A stretch of 64,000 nucleotides of DNA from Edaphobacter sp. 12200R-103. Lineage in GTDB: Bacteria; Acidobacteriota; Terriglobia; Terriglobales; Acidobacteriaceae. The stretch is from the NCBI RefSeq assembly GCF_010093025.1, contig NZ_CP048114.1, positions 310,001 through 374,000 on the forward strand. Reading direction: 5' to 3'. Both the position numbers and the translations under genes were made by a program. Below, piece after piece: positions 7,647 to 48,713 of the stretch; the first letter of the stretch is position 1, and each line of letters opens with the position of its first letter. The notes under the pieces were generated by a model, which had not been told where the DNA came from, ran no database searches, and was given only the letters and a program-made list of their open reading frames with translations.

Positions 7647-9044
7647 TCAGAGCGCAGGCTCCGCTGCTTTGGCGCGGTTGAGGAGTAGAGTGCGCTCGCG
7701 TGCGTTGCGGGTGAGTGCGGCGGCGCGCTCGAACTCGATGCGAGCCTCCTGGTGTCGGCCGAGCTTGTGGAGGAGGTCACCGCGCACGCTGGGGAGAAGG
7801 TGGTAGGACTTCAGCGAGGGTTCGTCGGCGAGAGCGTCGACAAGGGAAAGGGCTGCGGCCGGGCCGGAGGCCATGGAGATGGCTACCGCCCGGTTGAGTT
7901 GGATGATGGGAGATGGGGTGAGGTTGAGGAGTTGTGCGTAGAGAGAGGCGATGCGGCGCCAGTCGGTGGCCTCGGGGGTGAGGGCGCGGGCGTGGCATGC
8001 GGCGATTGCGGCCTGTAGGGTGTAGGGGCCGGAGTTATGCGGAACTGTTTTGGCATCCTGCGAACCCGCCTTAGTCTCGTGTCGACTGGAATCGTCATGA
8101 GCTGAAGATGGGGCACCCGCGTTGGTGTCCGTTTGGAGCAGGCGCTCGGCGTGTTCGAGGGCGGTGAGGCCACGATGGATGAGGATCTGGTCCCAGCGGG
8201 AGCGGTCCTGATCGAGCAGGAGGATGGGTTCGCCGGTAGGACCGATGCGGGCGTTGAGGCGTGAGGCCTGGATCTCCATGAGGGCGACGAGGCCGTGGAC
8301 TTCGGGCTCGGTGGGGACCAGTTCAGCTAGGACGCGGCCGAGGCGGAGAGCGTCTTCGCAGAGAGCGGGGCGGGTCCAATCGTCGCCGGCGGTGGCGGAG
8401 TAGCCCTCGTTGAAGATGAGGTAGAGGACCTGGAGGACGGATGCGAGTCGAGCGGTGAACTCGCCACCGCGGGGAACCTCGAAGGGAATATTGGCTTCGC
8501 CGAGAGTTCGTTTGGCGCGGACGATGCGCTGGGCGACGGTGGGTTCGGCGAGGAGGAAGGCGCGGGCGATCTCATCGGTGGTGAGGCCGCCGAGGAGGCG
8601 GAGGGTGAGGGCGACGCGGGCTTCGGGGGCGAGGATGGGGTGGCAGGAGATGAAGATGAGGCGGAGGAGATCGTCGCCGACGGGATTGTCGATAGCGGCG
8701 TTGATCTGGTCGGGCGTGAGCTGGTGGGTGGATTCGAGCTCGTAGCCGAGCTGCTGGTGCTTGCGATCGAGAAGCTTGTTGCGGCGGAGGAGATCGATGG
8801 CGCGGTTTTTGGCCGCGGCCATGAGCCATGCGCCGGGGTTGTCGGGGATGCCGGTGAGGGGCCAGCGCTCGAGCGCGGCGACGAGGGCGTCCTGGGCGAG
8901 ATCTTCGGCGAGGCCGACGTCGCGGACGATGCGAGTGAGGACGGCGATGAGGCGGGCCGACTCGATGCGCCATACGGCGTCGATGGAGCGGTGCAGGTCG
9001 ACGGGGTTGGTCTCGGCTGGCATCAGGGATGATGACATCATCAT
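7647..9044 (-). CDS. ECF RNA polymerase sigma factor, ECF42 type with C-terminal helical domain
   Basis: 465 residues. Sigma region 2 lies at about 35-105 ('RIVRDVGLAEDLAQDALVAALERWP', 'NPGAWLMAAAKNRAIDLLRR'), and sigma region 4 at about 150-205 ('RVALTLRLLGGLTTDEIARAFLLAEPTVAQRIVRAKR'). A long C-terminal region with 'VLYLIFNEGYSA' and TPR-like repeats to the end is characteristic of the ECF42 group, which lacks a dedicated anti-sigma factor and is commonly encoded beside DGPF/YCII proteins. Such DGPF genes exist in this window, but 32 kb away at 40.7-43.0 kb. Between the helical repeats (about residues 308-331) lies a peptide AGAPSSAHDDSSRHETKAG encoded by a 65-nt dispersed repeat. The ATG cluster at 9044 has no clear ribosome-binding site. 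Confidence 0.9.
   Translation of the reverse strand: MMMSSSLMPAETNPVDLHRSIDAVWRIESARLIAVLTRIVRDVGLAEDLAQDALVAALERWPLTGIPDNPGAWLMAAAKNRAIDLLRRNKLLDRKHQQLGYELESTHQLTPDQINAAIDNPVGDDLLRLIFISCHPILAPEARVALTLRLLGGLTTDEIARAFLLAEPTVAQRIVRAKRTLGEANIPFEVPRGGEFTARLASVLQVLYLIFNEGYSATAGDDWTRPALCEDALRLGRVLAELVPTEPEVHGLVALMEIQASRLNARIGPTGEPILLLDQDRSRWDQILIHRGLTALEHAERLLQTDTNAGAPSSAHDDSSRHETKAGSQDAKTVPHNSGPYTLQAAIAACHARALTPEATDWRRIASLYAQLLNLTPSPIIQLNRAVAISMASGPAAALSLVDALADEPSLKSYHLLPSVRGDLLHKLGRHQEARIEFERAAALTRNARERTLLLNRAKAAEPAL
8056..8120. repeat. 65-nt protein-invading repeat, copy in sigma factor gene
   Basis: The 65-nt segment tcctgcgaacccgcc...gggcacccgc matches the copy in uvrA (46499-46563) at 56 of 65 positions by hand count. 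It is read on the minus strand as AGAPSS..DD.SR.ETK.GSQ. It keeps the frame open between two TPR-like repeats of the sigma factor. Confidence 0.85.
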
Positions 9045-9155: not shown

Positions 9156-9220
9156 TCCTGCCAACCCCCACCTTAGTCTCATGTCAACTGACGTCGCCAT
9201 GAGCCGAAGATGGGGCACCC
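9156..9220. repeat. 65-nt repeat, intergenic copy
   Basis: Same element as at 8056 and 46499 (tcctgccaac...ccttagtctc...gccgaagatggggcaccc), here in the gap between the sigma factor start and the copper ATPase. It differs by small C-tract length changes that would break the frame in a gene. Same orientation as the two genic copies. Confidence 0.8.
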
Positions 9221-11875: not shown

Positions 11876-11954
11876 TATAGATAGGAGCAGAGATGGGTAT
11901 CTGTTAGGGCGTTAATCGTGGATCGATGCCTCAGGCATTGGGGGTTGCACGGAC

Positions 11955-11995
11955 AAAAGACAGGGATTCTTCGGCTGCGCCTCAGAATGACGACA
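11955..11995. repeat. REP-like dispersed element
   Basis: 'gacagggattcttcggctgcgcctcagaatgacgac', the short variant of the element, 80 nt after the copy at 11829 in the same intergenic region. Confidence 0.7.
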
Positions 11996-13094: not shown

Positions 13095-13130
13095 GATACA
13101 GGGATTCTTCGCTGCGCTCAGAATAACGGC
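13095..13130. repeat. REP-like dispersed element
   Basis: 'atacagggattcttcgctgcgctcagaataacggc' in the 287-nt gap between the isomerase gene and murQ. Confidence 0.7.
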
Positions 13131-16180: not shown

Positions 16181-16216
16181 ATACAGGGATCCTTCACTAC
16201 GTTCAGGATGACGAAT
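16181..16216. repeat. REP-like dispersed element
   Basis: 'atacagggatccttcactacgttcaggatgacgaa' in the gap between lepB and tpiA, just past the hairpin. Confidence 0.7.
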
Positions 16217-17093: not shown

Positions 17094-18323
17094 TTATTGT
17101 CTATCGGTCAGTGCAGCGACGCCGGGAAGCACTTTACCTTCGAGAAACTCAAGGGAGGCCCCACCGCCGGTGGAGATGTGGCTGATCTTGTCGGAGACTC
17201 CTGACTTGTGAACTGCAGCGACTGAGTCGCCACCGCCAACGATGCTGGTTGCGTCACGATTGGCAGCGACGGCCTTTGCGATGGCGTTGGTCCCCTTCGC
17301 GAAAGCGGGCATCTCGAAGACGCCCATGGGGCCGTTCCAGACGATGGTGATGGCGTCGGCGATCTCTTTGCTGAAGAGATCGATGGAGGCCGGACCGATG
17401 TCCAGCCCCATCCAGTCAGCAGGGAAGGGGGCGCCACCGGAGAAGATTTGGGTCTTTGCATCGGCGGCGAACTTGTCGGCGAGGACATGATCGATGGGCA
17501 GCAAAAGATTAACGCCCTTCTTTGCAGCCTTGTCGAGAGCCGCCTTGGCGACGTCGATCTTGTCGGCCTCGACGAGCGATTTGCCGGTAGTCTGGCCCTT
17601 GGCGTTGAGGAAGGTATAGGCCATACCTCCTCCGATAATCAGCGAGGTGGCGCGATCGAGAAGGCTGTCGATGACATCAATTTTGTCAGAAACCTTGGCA
17701 CCGCCGATGATGGCGACGAAGGGTTTGATGGGATCGCTGACGGCCTTGCTGAGGTAAGTCAATTCCTTTTCCATTAGGAGTCCGGCAGCAGAGACGGGAA
17801 CGTAGTGAGTAATGCCTTCGGTGGAGGCGTGGGCGCGGTGGGCGCTGCCGAAGGCGTCGTTGATGTAGACGTCGCAGAGCGAGGCGAGCTGACGGGCGAA
17901 CTCGGGATCGTTCTTCTCCTCCTCGGCATGGAAGCGGAGGTTTTCAAGCAGGAGAGGCTGACCGGGCTCGAGGTTGCCGACCATCTCGGTGGCGATGTCG
18001 CCGATGCAGTCGGGGGAGAAGGCCACATTCTCATCTTCGCCGAGAACGTGATCGAGCAGCTCGCGCAGGCGATCGACGACGGGACGAAGGCTCATGGAGG
18101 GCACAACCTTGCCCTTGGGACGGCCGAGATGCGAGCAGAGGATGACGCGGGCCTTGCGCCGGAGCGCGTACTCGATGGTGGGAATGGTTTCGCGAATGCG
18201 GGTGTCGTCGGTGATGCGGGGAGCGCTATCGGGACCATCGGCCGCGAGAGGAACGTTGAAGTCGACGCGGATGAGAACACGTTTATTGGTGAGATCCAGG
18301 TCGCGGATAGACAGCTTCGACAT
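17094..18323 (-). CDS. pgk: Phosphoglycerate kinase
   Basis: 409 residues from the ATG at 18323, chosen because the product then begins [26 protein letters not shown] as in the family and an AAGGA lies upstream. The open frame extends further upstream but with unrelated sequence. The enzyme transfers the acyl-phosphate of 1,3-BPG to ADP. Motifs: RVDFNVPL, '[11 protein letters not shown]', '[16 protein letters not shown]', '[12 protein letters not shown]', '[13 protein letters not shown]', '[10 protein letters not shown]' and the C-terminal 'GGGDSVAAV...[16 protein letters not shown]'. Between RidA (upstream) and tpiA (downstream). Confidence 0.97.
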
Positions 18324-18450
18324 TTTGAAGTCCTTTTCTGAAGATGTTTGGAGCGGCTCAGCAGAAGCCAGACCCGTTCGACACTCCATCATATCGGTTC
18401 GACGGGTTATGGACGCGGTGAGGTGATCCGTCCAGCGTGTTCCGGGGTTT

Positions 18451-18825
18451 CTATTCAGGGATGAGGGCGTCAGCTTCAATCTCGATACGCCAGCGTGGGT
18501 CGAGCAACGCTTTGACCACGACCATGGTTGCCGCCGGACGGATGAGGGAGAAGAACTTGCCGTGAACGCGGCCCGCAATCTCCCAGTCCTCGGTGCGAGT
18601 GATATACATGCGGGTGCGGTAGACGTGCTCAATGGAAGAACCGGCATTTTTGAGCGCAGCGGCGATGAGGGTGAGGCACTGATCGGTCTGCTCGGCCACG
18701 TCCTGGTCGTCTGCTCCTACAGGACCGGTTCCGGAGACGTGAACGGAGTTGCCGAGGCGAACGGCTCGGGAGAAGCCGATAACAGGCTCGTAGGGGCTTG
18801 TACCGGGAATGTTGGTGCGGGTCAT
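18451..18825 (-). CDS. RidA/YjgF-family protein
   Basis: 124 residues, the typical length of the trimeric RidA (YER057c/UK114) family, which hydrolyses reactive enamine/imine intermediates. '[24 protein letters not shown]', '[37 protein letters not shown]' and '[25 protein letters not shown]' follow the family pattern. The catalytic Arg of the RidA subfamily (R105 in E. coli, in a C-R-x-x-x-x-x-L context) is replaced by W-R-I-E-I-E in this C-terminal stretch, so it may belong to one of the Rid2-7 subfamilies. It lies 128 nt upstream of pgk on the same strand. Confidence 0.85.
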
Positions 18826-24664: not shown

Positions 24665-24706
24665 GTATTCTGCCCGGAGGGGGCGTCGTTGCTCCGGGCA
24701 GAATAC
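24665..24706. terminator. Strong hairpin terminator after the DinB-like gene
   Basis: A 15-bp perfect stem gtattctgcccggag / ctccgggcagaatac with a 12-nt loop, 72 nt past the DinB-like stop and about 115 nt before the AsmA-like stop, so it can serve both convergent units. It overlaps the following REP-like copy by a few bases. Confidence 0.75.
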
Positions 24707-24736
24707 AGGAATTCTTCGCTTTGCTCAGAATGGCGA
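24701..24736. repeat. REP-like dispersed element
   Basis: 'gaatacaggaattcttcgctttgctcagaatggcg' immediately after the terminator stem; a second degenerate half-copy (tttgctttgctcaggatggtgaat) follows at 24757-24780. Confidence 0.65.
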
Positions 24737-24819
24737 CTTGCAAAGAGTTTCTTTGCGTTTGCTTTGCTCAGGATGGTGAATCGGAAGAGTAATTCTTCCT
24801 GGACACCTATCCGGTCATT

Positions 24820-44098: not shown

Positions 44099-47000
44099 GC
44101 CTTCTTCTTTGTTGATTTTGCAGTCTTCTTTGCCTTGGCAGATTTCTTTCGTGTGGGTGAATCGGAATCTTCTGTCTTGCTAAGTTTAGCTGCGCGCGCG
44201 GTGGGTACGCCGGTTTTCTTCTCGGGAGGAACAAACTTCCCCTTCGGCTTCTTGTCGGGATCGGGAGCCGCTCCGATGCCGGCAGGTTGCGGTCCGGCAT
44301 GGCTGGCACCGTTCCGGTTCGCCAGAAGTCTGGGATCGTAGTGACGGGCGAGGAATTCGGCGGTGTGGGAGCCTTTGACCGTAGCGACCTGCTCGGGCGT
44401 GCCGTGAGCGATGATCTGGCCTCCGCCTTCGCCGCCCTCCGGGCCAAGGTCGAGAATGTAATCGGCGTTGCGGATAATGTCGAGGTTGTGCTCGATGATG
44501 ATGACCGTATTGCCCAGATCGGTAAGACGGTGAAGCACTTCCAGCAGTTTGCGGACGTCGTCGAAGTGAAGGCCGGTTGTGGGCTCATCCAGCAGGTACA
44601 GGGTACGACCTGTCTGGCGTTTCGAAAGCTCACGAGCCAGCTTCATGCGCTGGGCCTCACCTCCGGAAAGGGTAGTGGCGGACTGACCAAGGTGAATGTA
44701 GCCGAGGCCGACGTCGACCAGTGTCTGCAGGCGCTGATTGACCGCCGGAATGTCTTTGAGGACCGGCACAGCATCTTCGATGGCGAGATCGAGGATATCG
44801 GCGATGGAGTAGCCGTTGAACTTTACCGCCAGAGTCTCCTGGTTGTAGCGGCGGCCGTTGCAGACCTCGCACAGAACGTAGACGTCTGGCAGGAAGTTCA
44901 TCTCGATGCGCCGCTGCCCCTCGCCCTGGCAGGCCTCGCAGCGTCCGCCCTGCACGTTGAAGCTGAAGCGTCCGGGTTTGTAACCGCGTTCGCGCGACTC
45001 CGGAAGCATGGCAAAGAGGTCGCGGATGGCGGAGAAGACCCCGGTGTAGGTCGCTGGGTTGGAGCGCGGAGTGCGGCCGATCGGAGACTGATCGATCTCG
45101 ATGACCTTGTCGATCTGCGAGATGCCGCGGACCCGGCCGTGCTGGCCGGGCTCTTCGCGCGAACCGTATAGTTCTCGGGCGAGAGCGCGATAGAGGATGT
45201 CATTGACCAGCGTGCTCTTGCCCGAGCCAGAGACCCCGGTGATGACCGTCATCACTCCAAGCGGGAAGTGCGCGGTAACGTTCCTGAGATTGTGGGCACG
45301 CGCATTCTCGACGGTGATCCAGTTGCCGGTTAGCGGGCGAGGCTCTTTGCGGGCGACGATCTCGATCTTCCCGGCGAGGTATTTCCCCGTGACCGAGGCG
45401 TCGTTCGCCATGATCTGGTCGGGAGTGCCGTCCGCGATGAGGTGACCTCCGTTTTTGCCGGCTCCCGGGCCGAGATCGAGAACGTAGTCTGCCTTGCGGA
45501 TGGTGTCCTCGTCGTGCTCGACGACGAGGACCGTGTTGCCGAGGTCCCGCAGGTCTTCGAGTGCGGAGATAAGGCGCTGGTTGTCGCGCTGATGCAGCCC
45601 GATGGAAGGTTCGTCCAGGACGTAGAGGACGCCGCGGAGGCGCGAGCCGATCTGTGTAGCCAGTCGGATGCGCTGTCCTTCGCCGCCGGAGAGCGTGGCG
45701 GCAGAACGGTCGAGCGAAAGATAGCCGAGGCCGACAGCGTTCAGAAACTCCAGCCGCTCGATCACCTCGCGTTGCAGGCGATCGGCGATCAGGCGTTCGC
45801 GTCCGGCGAAGTTCATGTCGCGAGCGCTTTTGAGCGCACGCTCCAGAGAGAGCCCGGTAAAGTCGGCGATGGACTGACCGTTGACGGTGACGGCGAGCGA
45901 CTCTGGCCGCAGGCGCTTGCCCTGGCAGCGTGGGCAGGTGGTCGCGGACATGTACTGCATCATGTACTCGCGATAACCCTCGGATTTGGTGTCTTCGAGG
46001 TTGGCGCGGAGGTAGGCGAAGATGCCGTGGAAGCCGGTTCGTCCTGCCTCGCCCCTGGGAGGGCCGTAGAGGAAGAGGTTCTGCTGCTCGGGTGTTAGCT
46101 GGTCGAAGGGCTTGCGGATGTCGATCTTGTACTTTTCAGCGGCGAGCTTGATGAGGCGCAGGAGGTACTGCGAGGCGGAGCCGGGGCCCATGGCTCCATC
46201 GAGCAGGGGCTTGGACCAGTCGGTGATGGTCTTGGCGGGATCGAAGTCGTAGATGGACCCCAGGCCGTGGCACTCGGGGCAGGCGCCGTAGGCGGAGTTG
46301 AAGGAGAAGCTGCGCGGCTCGAGCTTGGGGACGTTGATGCCGCAGTCCGGGCAGGCCATGGAGGAGGAGTAGAGGGTCTCTTCCTGCTTGCGGGTGACCG
46401 GGTCCTGGATGCCGATGAGGACGAGGCCGTTCGCCATCTGAAGGGCCTTGGCGACCGAGGCTTCGAGGCGTCGCGTGTCGTACTTAAAGATGGAGGATTC
46501 CTGCGAACCCACCTTAGTCTCGCGCCGACTGGCGTCGTCGCGAACCGAAGATGGGGCACCCGCTTCTGTGGCGGCCAGGGGCTTGAGGATGATGCGGTCG
46601 ACGATGGCCTCGATGGTGTGATTCTTGCGCTTTTCGAGGCGCATACCCTCTGTGATCTCGATCATCTCGCCGTCGACGCGGGCGCGGAAGCCCTGCTGGT
46701 CGAGGGCCTCGAGCTCTTCGCGAAACTCGCCTTTGCGGCCTCGCACGATGGGAGCCATGATGGTGATTCGCTCGCCAGGGGCGAGAGCGACGATGCGCTC
46801 GACGATCTGGTCGGCGCTCTGGCGCGAGATGGGACGGTGGCAGTTGGGGCAGTGCGGCTGGCCGACGGAGGCGTAGAGCAGCCGGAGGTAGTCGTAGATC
46901 TCGGTGATGGTTCCGACGGTCGAGCGCGGCGAGCGCGAGGTTGTCTTCTGCTCGATCGAGATCGCAGGACTCAGGCCGTCGATGGAGTCGACATCGGGCC

Positions 47001-48670: not shown

Positions 48671-48713
48671 GCAAAGAAATACAGGGATTCTTCGCTTCGC
48701 TCAGAATGACGGC
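48671..48713. repeat. REP-like dispersed element
   Basis: 'gcaaagaaatacagggattcttcgcttcgctcagaatgacggcggg' in the gap between the STN gene and the MFS gene. It shares its flank 'tatcctgcaaagaaatacaggg' with the copy at 50466. Confidence 0.7.

Follow-up and report, generated by a model that had tools for sequence, protein, structure and literature searches.

The uvrA gene of Edaphobacter sp. 12200R-103 contains a short stretch that encodes the same peptide pattern as a stretch of an unrelated sigma-factor gene, which raises the question of what this DNA is, how it reached two such different genes and what it means for the proteins that carry it. Both genes lie in the window, the 64,000 nucleotides analysed here, which form part of a 4.55-Mb contig (Table 1). 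The original prediction put the identity of the two copies at about 86% and had them read in the same frame. Both points are borne out by alignment, which gives 86% over 65 nt (E 1e-15) exactly where the copies had been placed, each of them beginning on a codon boundary and reading AGAPSS-..-DD.SR.ETK.GSQ. The description as a 65-nt in-frame insert holds in part: the frame is kept, but 65 is not divisible by 3, no clean 65-nt insertion emerges against the nearest relative, and the element is probably slightly longer, judging by further copies that have a head like CCACAAAxCC upstream of GGGTGCCCC. Together with a third, intergenic copy, these two represent one sub-type, of which they are the only three members in this genome at E < 1e-10; their core, GGTGCCCCAT, has three occurrences in the window, where shuffles lead one to expect 0.14.

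Table 1. Positions in the window of the repeat copies, their host genes and two further features
Feature	Position	Strand	Remarks
REP-like element in uvrA	46499..46563	(-)	Translated as 21 residues (+E); sequence match, frame, hairpin
Probable head extension of the uvrA element, GCCACAGAAGC (compare CCACAAAxCC elsewhere)	46564..46574	(-)	Judged from other copies
uvrA, host gene, 1064 aa	44095..47289	(-)	Insert at residues 243-264, directly past the UvrA interaction domain (157-237)
Second copy, in frame within the sigma-factor gene	8056..8120	(-)	C-terminal of DUF6596 (199-299)
ECF-type sigma factor with DUF6596, host gene, 465 aa	7647..9044	(-)	
Third copy, intergenic, between the sigma gene and a divergent P-type ATPase gene	9156..9220	(-)	1.1 kb from the sigma-gene copy
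Phosphoglycerate kinase ORF	17094-18647		About 113 residues ahead of the domain; the start codon may be further in
Dispersed repeat ATACAGGGATTCTTCGCT..CTCAGAATGACGG, four to five copies	11950-11973, 13096-13130, 16181-16215, 24703-24737, 48679-48713		

The repeat family and the REP-associated transposases

The search of the whole genome and of relatives that was proposed with the original prediction returned dozens of dispersed, genus-restricted copies. Genome-wide, there are 43 exact copies of the 15-nt core GGGTGCCCCATCTTC, or 62 if up to one mismatch is allowed (reversed control, 0), and most copies follow the layout GGGTGCCCCATCTTCG-hairpin-CTAAGGTGGG, in some cases continued by TTGCAGGAT. 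Of the 61 genomes searched, 26 have the core: this genome and 25 of its 36 congeners, with none among the 24 outside the genus. Given this limitation to the genus, and given that the eleven closest named UvrA relatives (77-90% identity over the best segment) are on record as Edaphobacter, Granulicella or unnamed Acidobacteriaceae, the repeats can be regarded as a REP-like family of the Edaphobacter/Granulicella group. They resemble REPs in the broad sense of the term as short palindromic repeats with many dispersed copies that are mainly extragenic: 52 of the 62 have no Pfam-supported host gene, in a Pfam scan that took in 30 of the 47 copy-spanning ORF rows with 200 aa or more and may therefore undercount coding copies. 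Inspection by eye of the hairpin foot, which reads GGGTG(C) and GCGAA on opposite strands, revealed no unpaired GTAG, GT[AG]G or CGTC tag.

The hairpin itself is well preserved across the nine copies known of the uvrA sub-type, with 96.3% of cells paired against 31-49% in slid versions. Four pairs are altered on both sides, as when TCGCG/CGCGA of the uvrA copy is compared by eye with TCGTG/CACGA of others, and the covariation score is equalled by 2 of 500 shuffles; two weaker measures, the doubly changed pairs and the number of pair types, are matched by 18 and 111 of 500 shuffles, respectively.

Two Y1_Tnp genes are encoded in this genome, both of which exceed the cut-off of the NCBIfam model NF047646 (REP_Tyr_transpos), and matches of this transposase type are found in 51 of 62 genus genomes. 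Thirty-two transposase loci were examined, 30 fetched from the genus and the two of this genome. Of the 32 genes, 13 have the motif GGGTGCCCCA no more than about 400 nt away (14 with a looser pattern), versus 3 of 223 control windows, 1.1 kb each and drawn from loci of the sigma and uvrA genes, a few short-contig loci being scanned over more sequence; no such hairpin was found at the other 19, which include the twelve best-scoring genus loci. The GGGTGCCCC hairpins beside the Y1_Tnp genes of the genus, which in some cases flank the gene as inverted copies, resemble the element in their GGGTGCCCC head, their hairpin and usually a GTGGG close, and differ from it in their stems, for instance of the ATTCATG, ACGTCTCG and ATCCTTCG types, while the ATCTTC-type copy itself was not seen beside any of the 32 genes. 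Since the flanking hairpins are sister types, mobilisation by the REP-associated transposases is inferred. Taken together, the uvrA stretch is very probably a REP-like hairpin copy of the GGGTGCCCC superfamily and was most likely mobilised by the REP-associated tyrosine transposases of the cell. Such a transposase would insert the element as a single-stranded hairpin, and an insertion would survive only where it leaves the frame intact and adds a soluble, disordered linker, which would explain the excess both of one frame (GAPSS..KVGSQ) and of hairpin lengths that keep this frame open.

Coding copies, their frame and the sub-type of the uvrA insert

At least 10 of the 62 copies reside inside Pfam-supported genes, a count that leaves out REPs at the ends of PALP, Mur-ligase and ApbA ORFs. 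The hosts are UvrA, the sigma factor, an E2 acyltransferase (in two linkers), an OPT transporter, MutS2, MnmG (sense and antisense), a carboxyltransferase (antisense) and MacB (antisense). The GAP frame is the one read in six of the seven sense copies and the VPHL frame the one read in the MutS2 copy; with three further coding copies antisense, the frame rule is a bias. The two REP-derived linkers of the E2 component lie in one dihydrolipoamide acyltransferase (L009:494-2587), and the same kind of protein has one such linker in G010 (L237). The mnmG gene (L022:1034-3016) combines a sense and an antisense REP, and its antisense peptide, DAHLSAMKPREDGAP, is seen again in the carboxyltransferase (L032).

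The bias has a counterpart in hairpin length. In 42 of the 51 measured non-coding copies (one more was unmeasurable) the length of the hairpin puts a TAA in the GAP frame, and 6 of the 51 are in the open phase, as are all six GAP-frame coding copies, four of them established by script and the other two read by eye from its output. Nine copies of the sub-type to which the uvrA insert belongs were found, in 5 of 62 genus genomes. Its hairpin length puts an otherwise in-frame TAA out of phase and so leaves the GAP frame open, which would suit the sub-type to life inside genes. Two of the nine copies are intergenic and seven are coding, all in the GAPSS frame, their hosts being uvrA, the sigma gene (of this genome, G000, and of G034), a GH31 glycosidase gene, a TrmFO/GidA-like gene and a secreted-type gene in two species. 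This last gene has a start like a secretion signal and no Pfam match; its two versions are 88% identical, with 41, 15 and 164 differences at codon positions 1, 2 and 3 in 472 codons, and it therefore behaves as coding sequence.

The coding share of the sub-type (7 of 9) exceeds that of the generic copies of this genome (8 of 59; Fisher p 1.9e-4), also under the stricter counts of Pfam-supported copies only (5 of 9, p 0.010) and of one copy per host gene (5 of 7, p 0.0024), in a small sample whose copies are not all independent and whose search query was itself a coding copy. A further search gave 11 matches in 6 of 60 genomes, the two outside the nine being L237, the E2 linker mentioned above, which is coding and in the GAP frame, and L234, where two scanned ORFs have no accepted Pfam family. 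It is conceivable, if rather doubtful, that a REP lineage has adapted to life in genes, a length change having shifted the stop out of the sense GAP frame to yield a ready-made linker cassette (GAPSS..KVGSQDA) that spreads between proteins, and that the inter-domain loops of repair proteins act as its standing docking sites throughout the genus.

Insertions in UvrA, MutS2 and the sigma factor across the genus

Of the 41 genomes searched, 39 gave a UvrA that could be read (40 loci, G006 being represented twice), loop A, the site of the present insert, being unreadable in G062 and G035. The comparison with unfilled homologues that had been suggested together with the original prediction found the insert to be missing from the nearest relative, G063, whose UvrA is 94% identical, and from the other genus UvrAs with the loop read, any REP-like inserts there being independent and of different sequence. 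The loop of G063 is 16 residues shorter, so that the net gain, counted by eye, is 16 codons with part of the old loop lost, and no clean empty site was found in this comparison. In the UvrA tree G000 adjoins G010 and G034 rather than G063, and in the sigma tree it groups with G063; an uninserted loop A is present among the closest relatives by either tree (G063 and G034), and the 18 more distant UvrAs shown have short loops.

Superfamily hairpins with different stems are found in loop A of G005, G010 and G031, in loop B (around residue 470) of G034 (decayed), G010, G018, G023 and G031, and in the C-terminal tail of G035. With weak hairpins set aside, all those listed are sense and in the GAP frame. 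UvrA is hit in 8 of the 39 genomes read, and stems and tree together suggest about nine insertion events. A hairpin scan returned 12 hairpins in 9 of 40 loci, and 9 in 7 loci after weak ones were set aside at a limit of -15 kcal/mol that was picked once the list had been seen. Three weak antisense hairpins (L110, L128 and L133; -10.8 to -13.7 kcal/mol) were thereby dismissed as chance, and two matches of the other UvrA scan, L110 (antisense) and L188, likewise appear to be due to chance. The decayed copy of G034 (L140, -10.4 kcal/mol) was found in one of the two scans only, and a named MAG (L157), with REP-like peptides in both loops and no recognisable hairpin, was not counted. Loop B of the G035 protein (L144) contains a second, unrelated and dispersed-looking repeat, GTCATCCTGAGCGGAGCG...GGAGTCGAAGGACC, twice in frame, to which the ATACAGGGATTCTTCGCT..CTCAGAATGACGG repeat of the window is perhaps akin.

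An AlphaFold2 model of UvrA built with 34 sequences has a mean pLDDT of 77, with residues 242-267 below 50, and the insert is thus predicted to be disordered; the surface turn in which it had been placed by the original prediction is consistent with this model. UvrA structures are the top matches, and the insert falls within residues 238-272, a stretch left unaligned in the sequence match to the UvrA of C. thermocellum. The inserted peptide is probably a tolerated linker and not a new function.

In MutS2, eight hairpins of several different kinds are found in 6 of 30 loci (L271-L300). All of them are sense, five being read in the VPH frame and three in the GAP frame; the hairpin of L271 reaches -14.3 in its compact form, and that of L277, at nt 12, is perhaps upstream of the true start. 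Six of the eight lie at one linker, ahead of a motif like LSLTAARHPLLELRM. The same scan gave one hairpin in 29 sigma loci. The sigma insert is common to G000 and G063 and is found at the same site in G034, which groups in the tree with G033, a genome without it. Shared descent of the G034 insert was therefore rejected, a second insertion at the same site being likelier than several losses, and dN/dS values that use G034 are accordingly doubtful. Between G000 and G063, the 23 codons of the insert have a dS of 0.56 and a dN of 0.175 (ratio 0.31), compared with 0.48 and 0.093 (ratio 0.19) in the rest of the gene, which hints at some constraint on the insert in a small sample of sequence. The sigma-factor linker of G034 (L083) holds, besides its sub-type copy, two more repeat-like segments, GAPGLASETQVSQD and GTPGLPSETPVSQD.

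These data bear on whether the insert is kept for a function, by altering the activity of UvrA (and of MutS2) or the mRNA, for example in mutator states of the kind on which Di Nocera et al. speculated for repair genes. We consider this unlikely. The repeated involvement of UvrA and MutS2, set against a single weak hairpin in 30 loci of the CopA-type ATPase of the window that served as control, agrees with it, and so does the dN/dS ratio of the sigma insert; however, many host genes have no part in repair, the insertion loops also vary in length where no REP is recognisable, and the insert itself is predicted to be disordered. Enrichment in repair genes is suggestive only, as one control gene, moreover a membrane protein, cannot show it.

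A transfer of the sequence between the sigma gene and uvrA by gene conversion or recombination, with no mobile element involved, is highly improbable. It would fit three copies of one sub-type that stand alone in the genome at high similarity, but identity stops at the ends of the element and the flanks are unrelated, the genome holds dozens of related copies, and an exchange between two genes of the window was rejected on account of the sub-type being found in the GH31, TrmFO/GidA-like and secreted-type genes of other species. That the peptide is an ancestral motif, by descent or convergence, has virtually no likelihood left, and for uvrA it is refuted: G063 shares the sigma insert but lacks that of uvrA, which is missing in the same form from the other genus UvrAs read, and the unrelated host genes have DNA identity and a hairpin in common.

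Meaning and comparison with known systems

As an insertion of a REP-like hairpin, the uvrA element belongs to what amounts to a natural, replicated experiment on the gain of peptide segments by conserved proteins from mobile DNA. Within one genus, repeated hits have fallen on two loops of UvrA and one linker of MutS2, and relatives without an insert serve as controls, so that targeting of repair genes can be tested against mere tolerance, a choice not settled by the work of 2013. The in-frame residence of REPs in genes, including uvrA of other phyla, is already known since that year. The portions of Di Nocera et al. 2013 (PMC3733652) drawn on here describe REPs as mostly intergenic with some read within genes, list among the hosts of in-frame copies uvrA of O. 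terrae and Thioalkalivibrio and uvrB of R. conorii, propose flexible loops as tolerant sites and discuss both neutral loops and altered repair. By contrast, a sub-type compatible with coding, a preference for one frame and repeated insertion at fixed loops look new. The open-licence papers returned by a literature search, as far as their accessible text goes, hold no report of in-gene REPs for Acidobacteriota; REP counts are given for Granulicella aggregans in the part of PMC12306157 consulted.

Going by the same portions of PMC3733652, the present elements are like the REPs described there in being short, palindromic and mostly intergenic, with some copies in genes that include uvrA. They differ in that no GTAG/CGTC tag was seen, in the phylum, in having a mostly coding sub-type and in one dominant frame. 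Here, moreover, the same loops carry different hairpins in related species, whereas the same-site case in those portions is confined to recB of two Xanthomonas.

The original prediction had likened the repeat to the Rickettsia palindromic elements (RPE), and part of this comparison stands. As RPEs are characterised in the excerpts of PMC10969869 and PMC3733652 used here, the likeness extends to a palindromic repeat that is read in frame in unrelated genes and contributes a recurrent peptide. On the other hand, the length of about 150 bp given for RPEs in the excerpt of PMC10969869 contrasts with about 65-75 nt here, the likeness is one of description, and the phenomenon is known outside Rickettsia. 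Membership of the RPEs is not claimed for the element, whose own family is REP-like and has REP-type transposases associated with it. Finally, the passages of PMC6006769 on subclass 2.4 describe REPs inside tnpAREP genes, which share with the present case a REP inserted with the frame intact and the partnership of REP and transposase; the host there is the transposase itself, while the hosts here are unrelated genes.
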